Part shown: positions 2,362 through 50,381 of the stretch, one piece after another
Position numbering within the stretch: the first letter of the stretch is position 1
How the letters are laid out: the number at the start of each line of letters is the position of its first letter
IMG/VR virus record: IMGVR_UViG_3300007775_000137
Span: 1 to 52,788 of that record
Length of the DNA stretch: 52,788 nt
DNA from: a virus
Reading direction: 5' to 3' (one strand)
Program-made: the position numbers and the translations under genes
Notes under the pieces: generated by a model
What the model saw: only the letters and a program-made list of their open reading frames with translations
Told to the model about the DNA's origin: nothing
The model's database searches: none

Positions 2362-3210
2362 CTATTCTGTATTATTTTTTGTAAGCAACACATCAAATAA
2401 GTTTTGTTGACCTGGATTTTGCTCTTTCATTAATGTGGGAGAAAACCCATATGCCTTAATTTCTTCACGGTATTTGGTGTAGTCATCAACCCACTTTTTC
2501 CCATCGGCATATAAATTTTTATCTATTTCAAAACCATATCCCTTACGTCCTAAATTTTCAGCCGCAATAATGGTAGACCCACTTCCAGCAACCGGATCGA
2601 TCACTACGTCGCCTTCGTCTGTAAAGATTTCAATCAACCGCTCTAACAGTTTTACAGGCTTTTGGGTCGGATGTATCTTGCGGTATAACGGACTTTTCGT
2701 ATCGTCACTAATCCAGTTCATAACATTAAAAACCATCTTGCCGTTATTGTTAAACTTTGGCAGCTTGTCACGATAAAGGATTAGCGCGTACTCTGCATTA
2801 CCCACTACCCGCATATTCGCCTTCAGCACCTGCGCACTAAAGTTTTTGCGAAAAACAAGATTAATATAATTATTAATGTCGTACTTTTTGGCTAGCTCTA
2901 TAATTCCCGGCTGTTGCTCAAAGGAACAAAAAACAATCATGCAGGGGGCTTGCCCTCGTTCTTTTGGCTCCTTCTTCATCAGCTTACTACAAAAGTGCAT
3001 GAACTCATTTGAGTTAAAGTTGTCATCCGTTGCAAAAAACTTTTTACCCGCAAGCTCGGATTGCCCATTGCTATTGTCGCCATCGACATACCATTGTGGG
3101 TTAGAGCCGTAGGCGTCAATCCCTATGTTGTACGGAATGTCAGCAATTACCAGTTGAGCGCGTGGTATTTGGTAGCCTTTGAAGTTTTGAAAATGATCTC
3201 TAATTAGCAT
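2362..3210 (-). CDS. beta-class DNA N6-adenine/N4-cytosine methyltransferase
   Basis: 282 aa. The catalytic motif is ADIPYNIG near residue 22, a DPPY-type motif with Ile in the second position. The AdoMet-binding motif DPVAGSGS comes near the C-terminus after HPTQKPVKLLERLI. Motif IV before motif I defines the beta class. It presumably marks phage DNA against host restriction; target specificity cannot be read from sequence. It follows the VWA gene by one base, in an operon started by the regulated leader at 3767-3925. Confidence 0.85.
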   Translation of the reverse strand: MLIRDHFQNFKGYQIPRAQLVIADIPYNIGIDAYGSNPQWYVDGDNSNGQSELAGKKFFATDDNFNSNEFMHFCSKLMKKEPKERGQAPCMIVFCSFEQQPGIIELAKKYDINNYINLVFRKNFSAQVLKANMRVVGNAEYALILYRDKLPKFNNNGKMVFNVMNWISDDTKSPLYRKIHPTQKPVKLLERLIEIFTDEGDVVIDPVAGSGSTIIAAENLGRKGYGFEIDKNLYADGKKWVDDYTKYREEIKAYGFSPTLMKEQNPGQQNLFDVLLTKNNTE

Positions 3211-5056: not shown

Positions 5057-5341
5057 TTACCCGCTATTGTCTCTGGCCTGAAACAACTCATCCAAAGCAT
5101 TCATAATTCGCTTCTCTGCGCTGTTTAGAGCCGCTTCTACATCGTTAACCGCCTGAATGGTAAAACCATCCGCATGTAAGTCTAACATGCCCCTAACGGC
5201 ATTCTGCAAGCTGCCAGGATACTTAATAATTCGCCAGTATTGTTCCTGATTTTTCGCATCTTCACTAGGAATAACAAGTTGCTCAATTTGCCACGCTTTA
5301 TAATTGTAATGCGTAGTCCGGTATTGTGGTTTATCGTCCAT
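5057..5341 (-). CDS. hypothetical protein
   Basis: 94 aa from ATG 5341, which has GGAGGAAAG just upstream, inside the end of the RecB-like gene (11-bp overlap). The N-terminal half holds QYRTTHYNYKAWQIEQ and the C-terminal half is a predicted helix with EAALNSAEKRIMNALDELF. No known domain. Its overlap with the exonuclease gene places it in the recombination operon. Confidence 0.65.
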   Translation of the reverse strand: MDDKPQYRTTHYNYKAWQIEQLVIPSEDAKNQEQYWRIIKYPGSLQNAVRGMLDLHADGFTIQAVNDVEAALNSAEKRIMNALDELFQARDNSG

Positions 5342-6056
5342 TCTTTCCTCCATATTCGCAAATATCCCAAAATCCACAATATTTATGATGACACCACCAA
5401 TTAGCCGGATCGGTCGGTGTGAATACTTCTTTTTGGATTGCTTGCCACACTTCATTAACCAATCCATACAGGGCAAAAACATCCTCATGCGTTCGTGTTG
5501 TTTCCAGAATTTGCACGGCTGGATTTTTCGTTTTGGTGAATACGATATAGCGAAATGTGGCAGGCAATTTAATCATTTGTAATTGTTCTAAAGCTGCTAG
5601 GTAAAATGTTGGTTGCAAACTGGCATCGGCTTGCTCTTGTGACCATTTTTTGCCGCTGGTTTTAATATCAATTGGAATGCCGTCTTTTTGAATCATGTCA
5701 ATGTAGCCAACAATAGGAACCGATACGCCTGGTATATGTAGCTCTGTTTTCATTTCCAATGATTCTGGATTGATGCTTAAACCCTGTATGGTTTGCACAA
5801 TATCGGGTGAGGTAAGCATTTTTTGACCTAGCAGATTCATTTCCTCAGTTAGACCATTTTCTAGCGCATTTTCTTGCCAAGTATCTGCCAATGTAACATC
5901 ATGCTCTAAATGTTGCCTGATTAATTTATGCCACGCGCTGCCAAACAAAAGCGCATCGCTGCTTTCCTCTTGCAGCTTATCCAAATAACGATATTTCCAT
6001 TGTTTGCCGCATTTTAGATATTTACTGATAGATGAGTATGATAAATGGTCAATCAT
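5331..6056 (-). CDS. RecB/Cas4-like PD-(D/E)XK exonuclease with probable Fe-S cluster
   Basis: 241 aa. The motifs in order are SISKYLKCGKQWKYRYLD, SAWHKLIRQHLE, then the nuclease core GYIDMIQKDGIPIDIKTSG (Asp, then D-x-K) and the QPTFYLAAL helix. One Cys in the first motif and three in WWCHHKYCGFWDIC match the four-Cys iron-sulfur pattern of AddB/Cas4-type nucleases. Next to a RecT-like annealing protein it probably supplies the 5'-3' resection partner. Start chosen at ATG 6056; ATG 6068 is possible. Confidence 0.8.
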   Translation of the reverse strand: MIDHLSYSSISKYLKCGKQWKYRYLDKLQEESSDALLFGSAWHKLIRQHLEHDVTLADTWQENALENGLTEEMNLLGQKMLTSPDIVQTIQGLSINPESLEMKTELHIPGVSVPIVGYIDMIQKDGIPIDIKTSGKKWSQEQADASLQPTFYLAALEQLQMIKLPATFRYIVFTKTKNPAVQILETTRTHEDVFALYGLVNEVWQAIQKEVFTPTDPANWWCHHKYCGFWDICEYGGKNGR

Positions 6057-6270
6057 TGGATTCACCATATTTTTCACCGCAAAATGGGCAAAATGAAGCC
6101 ATTACCTTTTTTGCACTGCCGCGCTTACTACTGTCTATTTTCTCTGTAGTAACAAGCGGTTGATCTGGTCTACTTTTTTCCCCAGTGTCCATATTGACCA
6201 TAAATGGTATAACAATACGGGTATTATGTTCTGCCATTTGTTTATTAAATTGTTCAATACATTTACACAT
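6049..6270 (-). CDS. small zinc-ribbon protein
   Basis: 73 aa from ATG 6270, which overlaps the RecT-like stop codon by eight bases. The C-terminal SFCPFCGEKYGESND gives one CxxC pair, and MCKCIE at the N-terminus could give the second. Function unknown. It sits between the annealing protein and the exonuclease and overlaps both. Confidence 0.65.
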   Translation of the reverse strand: MCKCIEQFNKQMAEHNTRIVIPFMVNMDTGEKSRPDQPLVTTEKIDSSKRGSAKKVMASFCPFCGEKYGESND

Positions 6271-6982
6271 TAGATTCGCCCTCACTCAACTTTTCATAAA
6301 CCGCTGCCATTTCTTCTGGTTTAGGAACACTCCCATTATTTGCATCTAAGATTTGTTTGAGAGTAAACCCGTATTTTCCCGTTAAGTCATTTAGGGTCAT
6401 TTCTTGCGGCTCATGTACTGAAAAACTACCTTCAATAATCGGACTGCCTTCACTGTCAACTTTCATTCCTAGTTCCTCAGGAATGTAAAGCGGCATTCCA
6501 AAAACATCAGGTGCATAAAACCGATAACCATTCGTAATTGCACGGCCAAAAAGCATATTTTTAGGATATTGTTTCCACACATCCTTACCTAGCAATCCCG
6601 CACTTTTGGCATCATCAATTGTAAATGTGGACACACCAGCCACGCCCCATTCACCACTGCGTCCTAGTCGCCAAATCTCAATTGTGCAAATCTTGTCAGT
6701 ATGTTCTTTAATCTCATAATCGTAATTCGGATGTTGACGCAATTTTGCCGCGATTGTATTTGACTGAACGGCCAATTTGCCATTTACAATGTATAACCCT
6801 GTATTGGCTGTTGAAAGATGCAAACCAGCTTCAAGGCAAAACAGCAGTTTAATAGTCGCTTCCCCAGGTTTGGTAATGCCAAATTTGCGGCTGTCATAAC
6901 TGGCAAGTGCGATCTTTTCTAGCATCTCATAAACATCTGGCGTTAATTTTTGCTGCGTGATTTCTAATGCTTTATCGTTCAT
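6263..6982 (-). CDS. RecT-like single-strand annealing protein
   Basis: 239 aa with AGGAG before ATG 6982. The core FTIDDAKSAGLLGKDVWKQY, PKNMLFGRAITNGYRFYAPD matches the RecT/Red-beta pattern of a basic AAGL-W-xxYP-xxML-xRA-xxR-xPD segment. Such proteins anneal complementary strands during phage recombination. An SSB-like protein, an ERCC4 nuclease and a RecB-like exonuclease in the same operon support this. The N-terminal region (residues 30-90) resembles host-range/nutrient-type repeats less clearly. Confidence 0.7.
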   Translation of the reverse strand: MNDKALEITQQKLTPDVYEMLEKIALASYDSRKFGITKPGEATIKLLFCLEAGLHLSTANTGLYIVNGKLAVQSNTIAAKLRQHPNYDYEIKEHTDKICTIEIWRLGRSGEWGVAGVSTFTIDDAKSAGLLGKDVWKQYPKNMLFGRAITNGYRFYAPDVFGMPLYIPEELGMKVDSEGSPIIEGSFSVHEPQEMTLNDLTGKYGFTLKQILDANNGSVPKPEEMAAVYEKLSEGESNV

Positions 6983-13028: not shown

Positions 13029-15041
13029 TTAGACACCACTCCCTATTCCACCTAATCCCAACTTAGCTAATTTCTGGCTTAATTTATCAGTCTTTCCACC
13101 CTGTATGGCAAGTCCCCACGGCATTGTATAAGTCAACGATTCGATAAAAATCATACGCGGATCAAGTCTCAATGTAGTTGGTTGCACTTTTCCAATTAAA
13201 AAGTCAGGTACAAATAGCCACTTTCCAGCCGTTACATCCCACGGCTTGACCTCGATTCCTTGTGAAGTTTCTACCCTTTGCGCCGGGTCGCTTAATCGCT
13301 GCTGATATTCAAAATCAGTCGGGATGACTTCGTATGTTGGCACTCTACCATTATAGATACCAAAAATATAACGATTGTCTGAACTATCACCACGCGCCAC
13401 TAAACCCTGTATGAGGCTCCAGGCGTTGGCATTGTCATTCAAATATTGCTTAACTGCTAAAGTATTGGCTGTTATTTTACTGGTTGACGTACTAAAAATG
13501 CTATTAGGATCGGCGGCAATAATAGCCGCTAAAACAACATCTAAATCATTAGTTCCCGTGCTGGCCGTTTGATTGTAAATGTATTTTTTGAACAGGTGCG
13601 AGTAACCCAAACAATTTAGACTTAATGTAATACCGCCGCCTTGACCAATGTTTAATTTTTGGCTAGTTTGCGGGTCTTTATTCTCATTCAAAAAGACATC
13701 ACGTATTGTTGTTGCTTCTGTTGTGCTGACTCCACCCGCACTCAAAACAGACTCTAAAACACCATACAGGGCTTGGCTATCAGTATCACCGCTAAACGCC
13801 GTAGTCGCCCTCATACCAATGGCAGGAGGGGAGACAGTAGTGTCTACTGTTGAATAGGTCAAGGCGACATTATTTGAAACTTGCAAAAGTGGCCCACGAG
13901 TTACCGACAATCCGCCTAAAATAATATCAATCTGATTTACGAATCCTTCCCAAATTTTTACCAGTGAAGGATTATAAACTTCAATATGTCGCATTAGGCC
14001 ATTAGCGAGCCAGTCCTCTAAATCAATCTGCGAATCGACTATTTTAATGAGTGCTGAATCATAGCCACCTAATGCGCTAATCGTATGCGAGTATGTACCG
14101 CTGTCTAATTTGTCGCCTAGGGAATCATCTACCAATGAACTGCCCACAACTAGCGGGTCAAATGCACTTATTGATAGGCTAACCGATTGATGAAATGTGC
14201 CAATAGTAGCGGCAAAAGTTGGCAGTATTGTTGTACTGCTTGTTGATGTGGTAGTAGTGCTAGTCGTCGTCGTCGTCGTTGTTGTCGTCGTTGTCGTCGT
14301 TGTCGTCGTTGTCGTCGTCGTCGTTGTCGTCGTTGTCGTCGTTGTCGTCGTTGTCGTCGTTGTCGTTGTCGTCGTTGTCGTCGTTGTCGTCGTTGCTCCA
14401 CCACTTGCCAACAATTCAATAGCAACGATAGACCATTCATCATTTGTTGAAGCTGTAAAATCTAATGTGTCACTTCCGCCCGTTGCGGTTTCATCACCAT
14501 CTGTGTAACTAATATCAGTTGAGGTTGAAACGCCAGTAGCACCGTCACTACGTTCAGTTGTACTAGTTCCAGGTGTAAATGGCGTACCATCACCGCCCAA
14601 GAAATTAGCACCACCTACAATTAGACTAGTAGCTGCTCCGGTTGTAAATGTACACGTTGGATTTGTATCCGTCCCATCGGCTTGACCAACATTCCCACCT
14701 ACGCCATTATTTGCGCCCGTGTAACTAATTGCCGATATTTCACTAGCAACTGCCGTTCCAGTGAGTGTAACAGCAACAGTATTTGAACCACTAGCAGGAT
14801 TATCTAATGTCCAGATTTCAGTAGTTAAATAACGGTTTACAGTGTAATTATATTCACGCTGGACACGCGCCGTTAATGTCACTCCATTATAGGTAATTGC
14901 CGTAACTGGATTTGTTACGGTTGAAAACAACTTTACAATAACAACTAATGTCCTATCAGTTCCGCTTGTAGTATGCGAAAATGACGCACTACTGCGATTT
15001 GCGCTACTAGCATCAACTGTTATTGCATCAAATGTCGGCAT
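13029..15041 (-). CDS. tail tip protein with threonine-rich linker
   Basis: 670 aa. Residues 1-210 form a beta-sandwich-like domain rich in Thr/Ser (FSHTTSGTDRTLVVIVKL, SEISAISYTGANNGVGGN). A ~55-residue run of almost pure threonine follows. The C-terminal 400 residues (SALIKIVDSQIDLEDWLANG to the end) resemble siphovirus tail proteins of the ReqiPepy6 Gp37 type. The linker probably spaces an outer domain from the tail body and may be O-glycosylated, given the many glycosyltransferases here; that is an inference. Confidence 0.6.
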   Translation of the reverse strand: MPTFDAITVDASSANRSSASFSHTTSGTDRTLVVIVKLFSTVTNPVTAITYNGVTLTARVQREYNYTVNRYLTTEIWTLDNPASGSNTVAVTLTGTAVASEISAISYTGANNGVGGNVGQADGTDTNPTCTFTTGAATSLIVGGANFLGGDGTPFTPGTSTTERSDGATGVSTSTDISYTDGDETATGGSDTLDFTASTNDEWSIVAIELLASGGATTTTTTTTTTTTTTTTTTTTTTTTTTTTTTTTTTTTTTTTTTTTSTTTTSTSSTTILPTFAATIGTFHQSVSLSISAFDPLVVGSSLVDDSLGDKLDSGTYSHTISALGGYDSALIKIVDSQIDLEDWLANGLMRHIEVYNPSLVKIWEGFVNQIDIILGGLSVTRGPLLQVSNNVALTYSTVDTTVSPPAIGMRATTAFSGDTDSQALYGVLESVLSAGGVSTTEATTIRDVFLNENKDPQTSQKLNIGQGGGITLSLNCLGYSHLFKKYIYNQTASTGTNDLDVVLAAIIAADPNSIFSTSTSKITANTLAVKQYLNDNANAWSLIQGLVARGDSSDNRYIFGIYNGRVPTYEVIPTDFEYQQRLSDPAQRVETSQGIEVKPWDVTAGKWLFVPDFLIGKVQPTTLRLDPRMIFIESLTYTMPWGLAIQGGKTDKLSQKLAKLGLGGIGSGV
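14261..14394. repeat. GTC/GTT trinucleotide tract (poly-threonine coding)
   Basis: About 134 bp of GTCGTCGTT-type triplets, reading as ACN threonine codons on the minus strand, around residues 216-260 of the tail protein. As a triplet microsatellite it can change length without a frameshift. Opposite-strand long frames here (poly-Val, poly-Arg) are by-products. Confidence 0.9.
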
Positions 15042-15716
15042 TTATTTTCCCAATATTGGCAGATAGTTGCAATGATTATAAAAACACCCGGTATTTGTGG
15101 CGGTTGGCATAGGTGTATTTGTTGGCTGTAGTGTTGGTTCCATTGTTGCATTACTGGTAGCTGTTGGCTCTGGTTTTATACCAGGATAGATAGTTTTGAA
15201 AATTGTGGCTGGTACATTTGCCGTCCCATTGCCATTAGTGGAAATTGGCCCATGCTTCGCAGCATACCGTCCCTCGCAATCCTCTGGTATTAGATTTTTA
15301 GTACCACCTGCCACAGATAGCGACCATCCAACATCGGGCAATTCCCATCCCGTCAAACCGCCATTCTCAAAACAACCATTAGGAATTACAACGCCATCTA
15401 TTGCAATTCCTTTAATTTTCCAGCCCAACGAATTTTGAGGAAATTCACTGGTAAAACCCACTCGCAAAACATCACAACCAGACAAGTCAACATCTATAGA
15501 ATGTTTATTCCAGCCACCCGGCTGAGACATGCCGTCAAGATGTTCAATAGTGGTTATTTCACTATTACAATCTACCCAGACATCCATATACGAGCCGCGC
15601 ACAGTAATTACCCAGTATGAAATGGTTGAACTTTCAGCACTTGCCGATGAAAACAGCCAGATTGCCAAAAGCAAACCAGCAATAAAGCCAATTGATTTTA
15701 AGATTTTATTTGCCAT
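15042..15716 (-). CDS. secreted protein with Chloroflexota-type C-terminus
   Basis: 224 aa with GAGGAAAA before ATG 15716. Residues 1-27 are a signal peptide (basic start, hydrophobic GFIAGLLLAIWLF, then SASA). The middle is beta-rich (residues 30-170) and resembles carbohydrate-binding or F5/8-type folds. It ends with a Pro-Thr linker (PEPTATSNATMEPTLQPTN) and NYLPILGK, which resembles the YLP-hydrophobic-K tail of many Chloroflexota secreted proteins. It may coat the infected cell or block superinfection. The role is inferred. Confidence 0.6.
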   Translation of the reverse strand: MANKILKSIGFIAGLLLAIWLFSSASAESSTISYWVITVRGSYMDVWVDCNSEITTIEHLDGMSQPGGWNKHSIDVDLSGCDVLRVGFTSEFPQNSLGWKIKGIAIDGVVIPNGCFENGGLTGWELPDVGWSLSVAGGTKNLIPEDCEGRYAAKHGPISTNGNGTANVPATIFKTIYPGIKPEPTATSNATMEPTLQPTNTPMPTATNTGCFYNHCNYLPILGK

Positions 15717-45637: not shown

Positions 45638-46123
45638 TTATGAGGATGCCTTTTTGATTGCTTTGCGAACTTCTTTTACTAATTCAGGTTGTAATTGCTC
45701 TGCTATTACAATGTCAAATTCACGCGCCGTTGTACCGGGATGATGTACTATTTTTGCACTTACCATTCTGCCCGAACTTCCTCCACGCCTCGATCCAATT
45801 TTACGCGGTGTCGTTTTAGAAGTAAAGCCAGTTTGAAAACGTAAAGCAGGAGCGCGTTTAGGCGTAATAACATGCGGCTTAGTACCTCTCACAACATAGC
45901 CATAAATCTCATCCATCGTCGAAACGACAGCTACCAATTTACTTGACGTTGCCCTGTCAACCTTAAAGTCTGGCTTTCGTTTCCAAGTGGCTACTGTTTT
46001 GCCAAATTCACGCTCTGCTTTTTTGATAATATCGTTTAGGGTTTTGGCAGACTCCCTATCAAATTTATCTAGGTCGAATATTTTACCTTTTGGTGTAATT
46101 GAGCGTAGGATTATTTGTGCCAT
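45638..46123 (-). CDS. HK97 gp10-like head-tail completion protein
   Basis: 161 aa. Helical start with FDLDKFDRESAKTLNDIIKK, then DEIYGYVVRGTKPHVITPKR (the Y-V-x-x-GT-PH-I-P segment typical of phage minor tail/gp10-like proteins) and PGTTAREFDIVIAEQLQPEL. These proteins join head to tail. It is coupled to the portal gene by TAATG. Confidence 0.65.
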   Translation of the reverse strand: MAQIILRSITPKGKIFDLDKFDRESAKTLNDIIKKAEREFGKTVATWKRKPDFKVDRATSSKLVAVVSTMDEIYGYVVRGTKPHVITPKRAPALRFQTGFTSKTTPRKIGSRRGGSSGRMVSAKIVHHPGTTAREFDIVIAEQLQPELVKEVRKAIKKASS

Positions 46124-48621
46124 TAAACACCTGTGAGCGGTTCATCAGTTTCTACCCAACTACATTGGCACAGCCAGCCGCCGCAATCTAATTCGTGACT
46201 TTTTGGATATGTTCCTAAAGCTCGCCATTGACTACGGGTGAGAACACGCTGGCTATTATCTAGGCAAGAGTTACAATGATCGGTTGGCCCTAAAGCCCAA
46301 CCAATATGATCTTCATCATCTCCACCACGTAAAAACCCAAGCGCGTAAACAGCCAGTAAACCAACTCCCCAAAGCGTTACACGATTATCAATCAGTTCAT
46401 CAGTAGGCGTATCCTCATCACCACCAAAAGCAACAGCCGATAAATATAAACCCGGTATAGCGTCAAGGTTCACTTCTGTTTGGTCTGATATGATTTGCCG
46501 ATCCTCATCTGTCAATTGCGCTATGGTTTTGCCGCTTGCCAAAAGATACGTATTAATAATTTCAGCAGCAACCAATGATTCAGCTTCAATTCTGAACTCA
46601 TCTTCTGTAATTGTACCATTGGCAGCTTCCGCCATTAAGTCAGCTAATTCTGATTCATAATCCGCTGTATCAATTTGTTTGGTTGTCTTTTTTTTTATGG
46701 AACCCTGTATGGTGGTGTGGCTCTCCCCCTTGTCAGAATAAACCAACTCGCCAGATACGCGCATACCATTAAGAGGATTGTCAAGTTTTAGGTATTTCTT
46801 ACCCATACCGGGTTTAAGATATGCAATAGTCATATGTGGATTGTAGGTTGGATGTGTATCCTCGTTTGGCAACTGACTAACAATTGCATTCATTTGCCGT
46901 AATTCTGCCCCGTCAACATTCAACTTCAATACATCAAAATCATCATTCTGGAATAATGCCAAATTGCCAATTTTTATAGTAAGTGGCAATAGTTTTTGAA
47001 TCTGTGAAGTAATTTGCTTTGGTGTCACACTATCCAAAAATCCATACTTAACTGTTACATGGGAATCTGTCACAATTGGTGAACTTGACCATGATTCTGG
47101 TGGCTGAAACAAATCATCACTATCTAAATTAGCAGCAATTAACGAAGCGGCATGTCTAATATGATCAGGCATCATTAACATTAAGCATCCATATTCTTCA
47201 TTTTCCTTCGCTCTAATTTCCGCTGGTATCTGTTCCGGTTGCATTTCTGCCGTATCGGTTGACGGCGTATTGTTTGCCTCATTTAGTTCTGATTCAGTTG
47301 CGGCTTGCTCATCATCCGTTGCCACAATATCGGGTGTCACATCTGTAGTATTCAAAAGTGCCATGTACTCAGGCTTTAAGATGCCTTGGTCTGCCATCAT
47401 TTGATGGATAACTGGCAACGACAAAATGCCTTGACCCTTATCATAATAAGTTGAAAATGTTTTTGCCTGTTTATCTTCTAATTCAGCAGCTTGAATATCT
47501 GACTCAATGTCTTTTTCATCAAAAGCAAATGTCACCGATTGCGGCATGATGCCATTAAAATTTAGTTTATGTTCCCATAGCTTGACATCAGTTTCGCGCC
47601 CTTTGCCGCGTGACTTACGGTCTAGCACGTCACTTTGTTGACCGCTGCCCAAGCTGCCAGATGATAATGGCGCAAAATCCTGATAATCAGCACCAGCGGC
47701 CATTGCAATTTGGGCAATGTACCAGCGCAATGTAGTATCCTCGTCGAATCCATCAGGAACACTACGCAAGTCGATTGAAGCCGTGCTAACAGTCGAATTA
47801 GGGTCAAGACTACCAATAATCGTTGGCAACATGAAACGGCTATAGCCTTGATTGTCGGCACTCATTTGGTCATCGGCTAATTTGTCGTTGATTAGTTTAG
47901 TCTGAACACCTGAAACAAAATGTATCTCGCCAGGATTACGCCCTGCTATTTTTTCCCGTTTATAGATTCCAAAGTCTTTTATAATTTGGGCTGCTCTTAA
48001 GACGCGACTTAAGAAGCAAACCTGCAAACTATTCATTTCCTCAATTGGCGACGGCATATCCTCAAAAGTCAATACCTGATACCATGCTAATTTATGCTCT
48101 ATGCCATCACGATCCCAGTAAATGACAGGGGTTTCGGGGATGCCAGTTCTTACGCATCTACCTGCGTCCAAATGCGCTAGATTCAATACCGGGCTATTTG
48201 GCGCGTCTTCTTGCCGAATGACTTCTACAAATGCGCCATTGTCTTGTGTTAGTTGGTCAGTAAGTACTTTAATTCTTAGGTCAAGCCAGCCTTTGCCCAA
48301 GTTGGATGACTGTAGCATACGCTGCAAAATGCCAACCGTGCGAGGAGGCCCGTCAAGCGACCATGACATATTGGCACGCGCTGCCACAATCGTTTGAATG
48401 GCACTTGCTATAATCGGTTCAGTAGGCCAAAACCCCCGCAGCTTCCTATCACGTAATCTGACATTGCGTCCCCAGGCTGGCAAGTCATCAGCAAATGACG
48501 AAACATTGATAACAAAAACATCACTACCCGGTATTGTTTGTTGGTCTGGTATCTTTTGAACCGTACGATCCAATATCCGATCATCTATGAGTGCTTTTTC
48601 TTGCGTACCATTTTTGGTCAT
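46123..48621 (-). CDS. portal protein fused to a 2H phosphoesterase and a minor-head-like C-terminus
   Basis: 832 aa from ATG 48621 (a TTG at 48642 is inside a hairpin). Residues ~20-430 are a phage portal: FWPTEPIIASAIQTIVAARA, DQLTQDNGAFVEVIRQED, WYQVLTFEDMPSPIEEMNSL. Residues ~470-640 form a 2H phosphoesterase (2'-5' RNA ligase-like) with SHVTVKYG (His 521) and PHMTIAYL (His 596), both HxT motifs intact. The C-terminal ~170 residues end with GPTDHCNSCLDNSQRV and CGGWLCQCSW, resembling SPP1 gp7/MuF-type minor head proteins. Such a triple fusion is unusual. Confidence 0.8.
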   Translation of the reverse strand: MTKNGTQEKALIDDRILDRTVQKIPDQQTIPGSDVFVINVSSFADDLPAWGRNVRLRDRKLRGFWPTEPIIASAIQTIVAARANMSWSLDGPPRTVGILQRMLQSSNLGKGWLDLRIKVLTDQLTQDNGAFVEVIRQEDAPNSPVLNLAHLDAGRCVRTGIPETPVIYWDRDGIEHKLAWYQVLTFEDMPSPIEEMNSLQVCFLSRVLRAAQIIKDFGIYKREKIAGRNPGEIHFVSGVQTKLINDKLADDQMSADNQGYSRFMLPTIIGSLDPNSTVSTASIDLRSVPDGFDEDTTLRWYIAQIAMAAGADYQDFAPLSSGSLGSGQQSDVLDRKSRGKGRETDVKLWEHKLNFNGIMPQSVTFAFDEKDIESDIQAAELEDKQAKTFSTYYDKGQGILSLPVIHQMMADQGILKPEYMALLNTTDVTPDIVATDDEQAATESELNEANNTPSTDTAEMQPEQIPAEIRAKENEEYGCLMLMMPDHIRHAASLIAANLDSDDLFQPPESWSSSPIVTDSHVTVKYGFLDSVTPKQITSQIQKLLPLTIKIGNLALFQNDDFDVLKLNVDGAELRQMNAIVSQLPNEDTHPTYNPHMTIAYLKPGMGKKYLKLDNPLNGMRVSGELVYSDKGESHTTIQGSIKKKTTKQIDTADYESELADLMAEAANGTITEDEFRIEAESLVAAEIINTYLLASGKTIAQLTDEDRQIISDQTEVNLDAIPGLYLSAVAFGGDEDTPTDELIDNRVTLWGVGLLAVYALGFLRGGDDEDHIGWALGPTDHCNSCLDNSQRVLTRSQWRALGTYPKSHELDCGGWLCQCSWVETDEPLTGV

Positions 48622-48641
48622 AAACTTTACCAGTAAGCGCA

Positions 48642-48675
48642 AATAGCCTAACCCCGCCTGACGGAGTAGGCTATT
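48642..48675 (-). other. leader hairpin of the portal operon, UCAGG loop
   Basis: AATAGCCTA / TAGGCTATT outer stem with an inner CTCCG-TCAGG-CGGGG hairpin, about 20 bases before the portal start. There is no long T-run. It shares the UCAGG loop with 26262-26297 and 44940-44967. An AT-rich promoter-like stretch lies upstream (48680-48705). Confidence 0.6.
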
Positions 48676-48708: not shown

Positions 48709-48738
48709 CAAAAAAAGCTCCATCGTAAAGACAGAGCC
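48709..48738 (-). terminator. terminator downstream of the CRISPR array
   Basis: On the minus strand GGCTC and GAGCT pair around a 13-nt loop and are followed by TTTTTTTG. It lies 30 bp beyond the last repeat and only works for minus-strand transcription, which supports the array being read in the same direction as the TnpB-like gene. Confidence 0.75.
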
Positions 48739-48768
48739 TGTAAATATTAATTAGAGTTTTGGATCGTA

Positions 48769-48982
48769 CAAACTACCCACGCGCCTGTAGGATAAACTTG
48801 GCGTTGAAAGTTAGCCGCTTGTGAAGTAGCAAACCACCCACGCGCCTGTAGGATAAACGTGATTTCGTGCTACAATAGCTCATGATGATTCCAAACCACC
48901 CACGCGCCTGTAGGATAAACGAGGAGTGAGAAATGGAAAATGTGACAACTTTTCAAACCACCCACGCGCCTGTAGGATAAAC
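48769..48982 (-). CRISPR. mini CRISPR array: four 29-bp repeats, three spacers
   Basis: Repeats at 48769-48797, 48830-48858, 48892-48920 and 48954-48982; spacers of 32, 33 and 33 bp. Three repeats are identical. The one at 48769 has a single change (C to T at its sixth base) and is therefore the likely distal end of the array. Read on the minus strand the repeat begins GTTTATCC and ends GGTGGTTTG, and CCUAC pairs with GUGGG (one G-U) around AGGCGC. Mutated distal repeat, terminator and hairpin all favour minus-strand transcription from the TnpB side. The length pattern is also that of type I-E arrays, and the plus-strand end GGATAAAC recalls their repeats, so use of host Cascade is the alternative. 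Confidence 0.9.
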
Positions 48983-49083
48983 CCTTGAGTATTACCCCTA
49001 TATACAGTTGTTAAGTGGGTGTACATATGAGTTACCCCATATGTGCTGGTGGTCTTAATACCGAAGTATGCCACCTTCCTGAT
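48983..49083 (-). ncRNA. structured RNA between TnpB-like gene and array (omegaRNA/tracrRNA/leader candidate)
   Basis: In the 101 nt between the stop codon and the first repeat the minus strand can form GGTGG...CCACC enclosing ATAC-TTCG-GTAT (UUCG tetraloop, 49048-49075), then ACATATG-8 nt-CATATGT (49023-49044). CACCCAC (49021-49015) is complementary to GTGGGTG in every repeat, a 7-nt anti-repeat. In TnpB systems the omegaRNA lies exactly here, at the 3' end of tnpB, and guide sequence follows. The region ends ACTCAAGG before the repeat; TCAA is the right-end cleavage site of IS608. Confidence 0.6.
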
Positions 49084-50262
49084 TCACAGTGAGCGTTCAC
49101 TACCGCCCAACTCCACAGGCAATTCCCCGCGCTTCACAGGTTCAGCTAAAGCCGCTAAATTCATAGCAGCATTAAGGTCTCTATCCATTTCTGCCCCGCA
49201 ATCAGGGCATTTATAAATCCGCATGGCTAATGTCAATTCAGAATTGATACAGCCACAGGAGCTGCATGTTTTGGAAGATGCAAACCATCTATCCGCTTTC
49301 AAAACCTCAATCCCATTCCATGCTGCTTTATATTCAATTTGTCGGTGCAATTCAGACATTGAAGCATCACTAACGGCTTTAGCCAGATTGTGATTTTTAA
49401 CCATGCCCTTAACGTTCAAATCTTCAATGACTACCACCGAAGGCCGTTTATGTTCGGTTACATACTTGCTTACATTGTGCAGGTTATGCGCCCGTTTGTT
49501 AGCTATCTTTTGGTGAAGCTTGGCAATCTTAGCTTTTGTTTTGGTCCGGTTAGAACTGCCTTTTTCACGTCGTGATAATTCGCGCTGTAAACGGGCTAAC
49601 TTTTTCTCGTATGTTTTCAGCACCTTGTCATTAGGAAACTCTTTCCCATCTGAGCAAACCGCCAATGATTTAATGCCAACGTCAACGCCTAGCGGTTCAC
49701 CCATTGCCGGTACGGGTTCGTCTGTTTCTTGTTCGACTTGAAAGCTAATAAACCATTCCCCGGCACTTTCCGAAAGTGTCACAAAGTTTATTTTTACATC
49801 CTCTGGAATATAATTAGATTCAGCTAAATTTACCCAACCAATACGGGGTAACTTAACACGCCCATTTTCAACACGAATAGAACCACGTAAAACAAATGAT
49901 TGCTTGTCTTTGTATCTGCTTTTGAATTTCGGAAATCCTGTTTCTTTGCCGCCTTTACCCTGTTTAATGCGACGGAAAAAGTTTTGATAAGCAATGTCCA
50001 CATGGTCAAACTCTTCTTGCATTATGCAATATGGGTATTCACGAATCCATGGACAAATCTCATCTTTGGTAGCATTAAAACGCCTCTTTTGCTCAAACTT
50101 GTTTGGTTTACCGCCAGCTTCATAAGTGGCGATCCTATCGGCCAACGCCCAATTAAAAACATACCGAGCAGCTCCACAACAGCCGCCAAAATAACGCCGC
50201 TGCTTTGCGGTTGGTCTAAGTTTTGTCTTGTAGGCTTTTAAAATCGTGATATGATTTATCAT
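49084..50262 (-). CDS. tnpB: TnpB/Cas12-like RNA-guided nuclease
   Basis: 392 aa from ATG 50262 (AAAAGGA upstream; TTG at 50280 overlaps that site). It has the HTH/helical N-terminus KLRPTAKQRRYFGGCCGAAR and FPKFKSRYKDKQSFVLRGS, then RuvC-I PLGVDVGIKSLAV, a Lys/Arg-rich bridge, RuvC-II VVVIEDLNVKGM, the zinc finger CSSCG...CPDCG, and RuvC-III EMDRDLNAAMNLA. The D-E-D triad is intact, so it should cut DNA. No TnpA is adjacent. Downstream are a structured RNA and a CRISPR array in the same direction. That pairing recalls minimal type V-U/Cas12 systems, which arose from TnpB. Confidence 0.9.
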   Translation of the reverse strand: MINHITILKAYKTKLRPTAKQRRYFGGCCGAARYVFNWALADRIATYEAGGKPNKFEQKRRFNATKDEICPWIREYPYCIMQEEFDHVDIAYQNFFRRIKQGKGGKETGFPKFKSRYKDKQSFVLRGSIRVENGRVKLPRIGWVNLAESNYIPEDVKINFVTLSESAGEWFISFQVEQETDEPVPAMGEPLGVDVGIKSLAVCSDGKEFPNDKVLKTYEKKLARLQRELSRREKGSSNRTKTKAKIAKLHQKIANKRAHNLHNVSKYVTEHKRPSVVVIEDLNVKGMVKNHNLAKAVSDASMSELHRQIEYKAAWNGIEVLKADRWFASSKTCSSCGCINSELTLAMRIYKCPDCGAEMDRDLNAAMNLAALAEPVKRGELPVELGGSERSL

Positions 50263-50287
50263 GCTTCGATTCCTTTTCAATCGGAGG

Positions 50288-50317
50288 GCTAGTGGACGTT
50301 ACCGCGTCGCGACTAGC
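50288..50317. other. hairpin upstream of tnpB (possible IS200/IS605 left end)
   Basis: GCTAGT (50288-50293) and ACTAGC (50312-50317) enclose GACG-6 nt-CGTC. An imperfect subterminal hairpin is what TnpA recognises at IS200/IS605 left ends. It lies 25 bp before the start codon and might also be the promoter/leader of tnpB. Element ends are not certain. Confidence 0.4.
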
Positions 50318-50353
50318 AATTTCTATTATTATAACAAACAACACAGTAAAACA

Positions 50354-50381
50354 CAAAAAAGCCCTTCGGTAAAGAAGGGCT
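50354..50381 (-). terminator. terminator of the small-gene operon upstream of tnpB
   Basis: AGCCCTTC and GAAGGGCT (8 bp, loop 6) followed by TTTTTTG on the minus strand, eight bases after the stop at 50389. Confidence 0.9.

Follow-up and report, generated by a model that had tools for sequence, protein, structure and literature searches.

A phage tnpB gene followed by a structured gap and a four-repeat CRISPR array: a possible TnpB-derived, miniature type V-like system

The window, i.e. the whole stretch of DNA analysed here, is a 52,788-base virus record in IMG/VR. On its minus strand, positions 48709-50381 hold a tnpB gene, a structured gap of ~100 nt and a four-repeat CRISPR array (Table 1). 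Minus-strand terminators were found on both sides of this region by a scan that returned seven terminator-like sites compared to 1.9 +/- 1.4 expected. Since one lies beyond the array and the other upstream of tnpB, tnpB and the array form one unit, and they are likely co-transcribed. The hairpin upstream of tnpB was the sole candidate seen for a transposon end. An early reading that placed an end of the element at a TCAA adjoining the array was dropped because no relative fixes the boundary. In a related phage stretch (L022), neither tnpB nor an array lies upstream of the portal-like gene, and the flank there was not alignable. An earlier note on this DNA had described an intact tnpB, a 101-nt gap folding into a UUCG hairpin and a 7-bp ACATATG hairpin, four 29-bp repeats with 32-33-bp spacers, a minus-strand terminator beyond the array, and a single orientation of all parts with the mutated repeat lying farthest out. 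All of these features were recovered.

Table 1. Features of the tnpB-array unit, in window positions.
Feature	Position	Strand	Basis
Intrinsic terminator, 3' of the array	48715..48739	-	Terminator scan
CRISPR array, four copies of GTTTATCCTACAGGCGCGTGGGTGGTTTG, three spacers	48769..48982	-	Repeat detection; orientation by I-E register, stronger hairpin and position of the mutated copy
Candidate anti-repeat CACCCAC, complementary to repeat GTGGGTG	49015..49021	-	Inference
Stem-loop ACATATG...CATATGT, 7 bp	49023..49044	-	RNAfold
Stem-loop GGTGG...CCACC, UUCG cap	49048..49075	-	RNAfold
TGAATCAGGAAG, omegaRNA scaffold 5' pseudoknot strand, which overlaps with the stop of tnpB	49075..49086	-	11-mer TGAATCAGGAA common to 18 relatives; role by ISDra2 structure
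tnpB, RNA-guided nuclease (by family)	49084..50280	-	ORF and family models
Hairpin CTAGT...ACTAG, possible IS605-type left end	50289..50316	-	RNAfold; left-end identity a candidate
Possible promoter TTGTGT-17-TATAAT for the unit	50328..50356	-	Inference by eye; weak -35, missing from scan list
Intrinsic terminator upstream of tnpB, ending the preceding gene's transcript	50360..50381	-	Terminator scan

The phage nature of the window is backed by a tape-measure protein. Directly downstream of the array, a gene at 46123-48642 (minus strand) encodes a large protein of 839 aa that is called portal-like by its position and has relatives in IMG/VR. Its C-terminal half carries a 2'-5' RNA ligase-like domain (PF13563, residues 528-610). 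Neither tnpB nor a CRISPR-like array was present in the examined IMG/VR stretches of its relatives, suggesting that the tnpB-array unit is probably an accessory insertion. When the DNA of the locus was compared with phages and plasmids, the only match was one of 109 bp between tnpB and a Butyrivibrio plasmid. The motif ACCC[T/G]GTAT[T/G]G is dispersed over the whole window, with 38 copies on both strands when any base is allowed at position 5 compared to ~0.2 expected (e.g. at 6796, 15913, 26359, 32721 and 48526), and from 4375 to 50825 the gaps between copies never exceed 3.2 kb. Three copies occur in L022 and none in the stretches L064, L071 and L072, and the motif looks like a phage-wide signal. 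The earlier note had it missing from the tnpB-array locus, which is not quite the case, as a variant copy, ACCCCGTATTG, lies at 49839 inside tnpB. Among the window proteins scanned, the sole adaptation-like gene is a PD-(D/E)XK nuclease with weak Cas4 likeness (5331-6077, minus strand; PF12705), of a type that is frequent in phages. A long low-complexity tract at 14197-14443 encodes poly-threonine within a 670-aa structural-type protein. The protein encoded at 15042-15716 (minus strand) combines a PT-rich linker with a C-terminal YLPILGK, which we take to be the style of Chloroflexota surface proteins. Judging from this protein, the host of the phage is probably a member of the Chloroflexota.

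The tnpB reading frame encodes 398 aa from a TTG, or 392 aa from an ATG at 50262 that is the likely start. Its product passes the cut-offs of PF01385, PF07282 and PF12323 and scores 315.9 bits with the NCBIfam model of RNA-guided TnpB, NF040570 (cut-off 100). The RuvC D-E-D residues are intact (GVDVG at residue 198, IEDLN at 285 and DRDLNAA at 366), as is the zinc finger (CSSC at 339 and CPDC at 358). With the NCBIfam model of C2c8 (V-U2) the product reaches 82 bits, below the cut-off of 350, compared to 451 bits for the protein of cyanophage vB_AphaS-CL131. The PADLOC V-U4 model (Cas12u4) gives 290 bits. Since the same model gives 265 bits for L005, an array-less locus encoding the nearest relative found (47% identical protein), this match does not make the window TnpB a Cas12n. 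By family models, the window encodes an ordinary TnpB.

The guide of ISDra2 is immediately preceded by GUUCA, and in the solved structure these bases pair with a GAA strand further upstream to make a pseudoknot; Cas12 guide RNAs have this feature too (PMC10097598). Array-less relatives that carry the exact 11-mer TGAATCAGGAA have GTTCAC (once ATTCAC) 48-50 nt downstream of it in 18 of 18 loci, most of them cyanobacterial, which do not count as independent cases. The 11-mer is retained in the window, but neither the omegaRNA 3' pseudoknot strand nor the guide junction was found in the 101-nt gap (49083-48983); no TTCA precedes the array, and the first one occurs at +261 nt. The locus resembles a solitary IS200/IS605-type tnpB with its omegaRNA in protein family and 5' omegaRNA motif, and differs from it in this 3' end and in the downstream array. 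By eye, GGTAACTCAT at 49027-49036 matches GGTAGTTCAC at seven of ten positions and is a possible degenerate omegaRNA end. Retention of TGAATCAGGAA without TTCA would be expected of a split omegaRNA, and equally of a decayed one. A search of the locus and the repeat against Rfam returned no family.

The repeats of the array start at 48769, 48830, 48892 and 48954, are 29 bp each with periods of 61, 62 and 62, and enclose spacers that measure 33, 33 and 32 bp when read in the direction of transcription. Three of the four are identical, and the tnpB-distal copy has one substitution. Repeats of 29 nt with a period of 61-62 are typical of type I-E and not of type V. As a reference, true I-E arrays were retrieved via Cse1 from three phyla and a profile was made of 22 repeats. 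The window repeat scored 4.0 bits at offset 0 on the minus strand (best plus-strand score, -5.5), far below the 23.9-44.8 bits of the 22 true repeats. In exact register, it shares 15-18 of 28 positions with the first ten I-E repeats, and its I-E likeness had p = 4e-4 against shuffles and p = 0.04 against hairpin-preserving shuffles. The I-E 3' handle is absent from it, and the periods compare with mostly 61 in the Cse1-retrieved arrays. The period and the in-register likeness, taken with the low score and the missing handle, suggest I-E geometry, perhaps I-E ancestry, rather than a regular I-E repeat. The I-E register, the stronger repeat hairpin on the tnpB strand (-5.4 kcal/mol compared to -1.5 on the opposite strand) and the tnpB-distal position of the mutated repeat place the array on the minus strand. 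A plus-strand orientation, hinted at by GGATAAAC at the 3' end, was rejected, as the I-E register fits the minus strand only. The repeat core had no match in the 84,980 genomes of the GTDB 220 representatives or elsewhere in IMG/VR. The spacers had no exact 20-22-mer target in IMG/VR and only chance-level matches in phages, plasmids and the other compared loci. Cse1 was not found and no cas effector genes were seen.

In the orientation of tnpB, the 3' end of the repeat reads GTGGGTG-GTTT-G. The gap contains CACCCAC, the complement of GTGGGTG, and the GUUU that comes next in the repeat is able to pair with GAAU, so by complementarity the repeat end could replace the missing omegaRNA 3' strand. 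The 7-nt anti-repeat proposed in the earlier note is thus present, but is weak as lone evidence since 15% of shuffled repeats have one. The combined fit of the anti-repeat and the adjacent pseudoknot strand was reached by 0.2-0.4% of repeat shuffles and 2% of gap shuffles, modest p-values (~0.002-0.02) for a template that was set after inspection of the sequence and is post hoc. None of ten real I-E repeats had this fit. The pseudoknot match includes two G-U pairs and lies one base nearer the spacer than in the relatives. The energy of the repeat-gap duplex was rejected as proof of a tracrRNA because it was not significant (p ~0.1).

The closest parallel in layout that we compared is the type V-U2 (C2c8) locus of CL131 (MG209611; PMC6293099), in which a structured gap and then an array likewise lie downstream of a phage tnpB and share its strand. 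CL131 also keeps a 5' motif, TCAGGAAG, with no TTCA in the gap or within 330 nt, has no other cas genes reported, and shows C-to-T repeat substitutions like the window. In contrast, the two proteins are only 28% identical over the RuvC half, and CL131 has a 36-nt repeat with variable spacers where the window has 29 nt and 32-33. The CL131 gap (L075, ~2892-2914, minus strand) contains two 7-nt blocks complementary to the repeat, CCAACTA and ACATCCT. The CL131 paper reports no tracrRNA (PMC6293099), and these blocks are a candidate tracrRNA for the V-U2 system.

We tentatively favour, at a little short of an even chance, the interpretation that the array feeds guides to TnpB, making the locus a phage-borne, TnpB-derived miniature type V-like system. 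In this reading, a tracrRNA-like scaffold would come from the tnpB transcript, the scaffold's own 3' pseudoknot strand and guide junction having been lost. RNA from the array would pair with this scaffold through its GTGGGTG-GTTTG repeat end (GTGGGTG with CACCCAC, GUUU with GAAU) and deliver the spacer as guide, whereupon TnpB would cut DNA matching the three spacers, most likely from rival phages or plasmids. As to its origin, the array may descend from a type I-E-like array captured by tnpB. This interpretation is supported by the single co-directional unit between minus-strand terminators, by the repeat orientation matching the tnpB strand, by the absence of the GTTCAC/ATTCAC that all 18 array-less relatives with the exact 11-mer have, by the missing TTCA and the two anti-repeat blocks in CL131, and by the rarity of the combined fit in shuffles and real I-E repeats. 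We also count in its favour that no arrays were seen beside the other retrieved TnpB loci, and that there are published precedents (PMC6293099, PMC12607003, PMC12669027), including one for the split-omegaRNA model (PMC10097598). It is weakened by the post hoc template and the plain duplex energy, by the G-U pairs and the one-base shift, by the possible omegaRNA end, by the I-E-typical repeat length and period, and by the lack of any spacer target. No close relative of the tnpB-array pair was found, so there is no covariation to draw on. The earlier note had proposed a minimal RNA-guided system of a TnpB-like protein and a multi-spacer array. The CL131-like layout of the locus, its split-omegaRNA look and the repeat fit speak for that proposal, which is supported in part; the post hoc nature of the fit, the I-E geometry, the possible degenerate end and the lack of a relative of the pair leave it short of established.

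The strongest rival, which we hold to be the less probable of the two, has the array as a phage-borne mini-array that stems from class 1 (I-E-like) CRISPR and whose crRNAs are both made and used by host Cascade/Cas3 against competing phages, or serve as decoys. The tnpB would then encode an unconnected IS605-type nuclease that has an omegaRNA of its own, adjacent by insertion or co-capture. Viral mini-arrays using host Cas proteins are well known (PMC6858448, PMC11656645), and those of SPV1/SPV2 resemble the window array in being viral, with few spacers and no Cascade genes (PMC6858448). The repeat length, period and in-register I-E likeness, and the absence of Cse1 and cas effector genes, also fit host service. 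However, the profile score and missing handle are not those of an I-E repeat, the hairpin-preserving shuffles leave the likeness marginal, and the tight co-directional coupling to tnpB, which also sets the array apart from SPV1/SPV2, would be a coincidence. The repeats of viral mini-arrays are normally identical to those of the host (PMC11656645), so the lack of a match in GTDB and IMG/VR makes simple service by the host less likely, provided that the host is among the sampled genomes. The earlier note's alternative of a solitary tnpB beside a host-served I-E-like array is weakened, as the repeat falls far below the I-E profile and is missing from the sampled genomes, but it keeps a fair probability.

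It is improbable that the locus is a relic, with a passenger array next to a tnpB whose omegaRNA end is gone, and with neither of them guiding anything or the repeats serving solely as RNA anti-CRISPR decoys. The missing omegaRNA 3' strand and the lack of spacer targets in the collections searched are consistent with decay, but the catalytic and zinc-finger residues are intact, three of four repeats are identical and the terminators are maintained. That the repeats are phased binding sites of the iteron, regulatory or partition type and not CRISPR is very improbable, since four copies with a period of about six helical turns are offset by CRISPR-sized spacers of unrelated sequence, an I-E-like repeat in register, no change in G+C skew at the locus, and a position directly 3' of tnpB as in CL131.

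The tracrRNA of TranC originates in the tnpB transcript. That of Cas12n (V-U4) does so too (PMC11641405), and LaTranC (PDB 9jfo, 9jfq) and Cas12n resemble the window in having a TnpB-like effector. Compared with solved structures, the window protein matches ISDra2 TnpB (4e-64) far better than it does LaTranC (5e-30). TnpB beside an array has already been described in phages (PMC6293099; PMC12607003), and TnpB is held to have given rise to type V effectors in ~50 independent events (PMC12669027). Intermediates that still show a readable tnpB and array together with an omegaRNA that is partly dismantled are few, and this phage locus is compact enough for one short construct to probe both the splitting of the guide and the origin of the array. 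It would be notable if a split guide and an I-E-like array source were proven. The specific route, in which a phage TnpB took over an array of class 1 (I-E-like) type, the omegaRNA of this TnpB was split as the guide junction was lost, and the end of the captured repeat changed from a Cascade handle to a pseudoknot-completing strand, we consider unlikely as it stands. If true, the locus would represent an independent and very young TnpB-to-CRISPR transition in which both ancestors are still recognisable.
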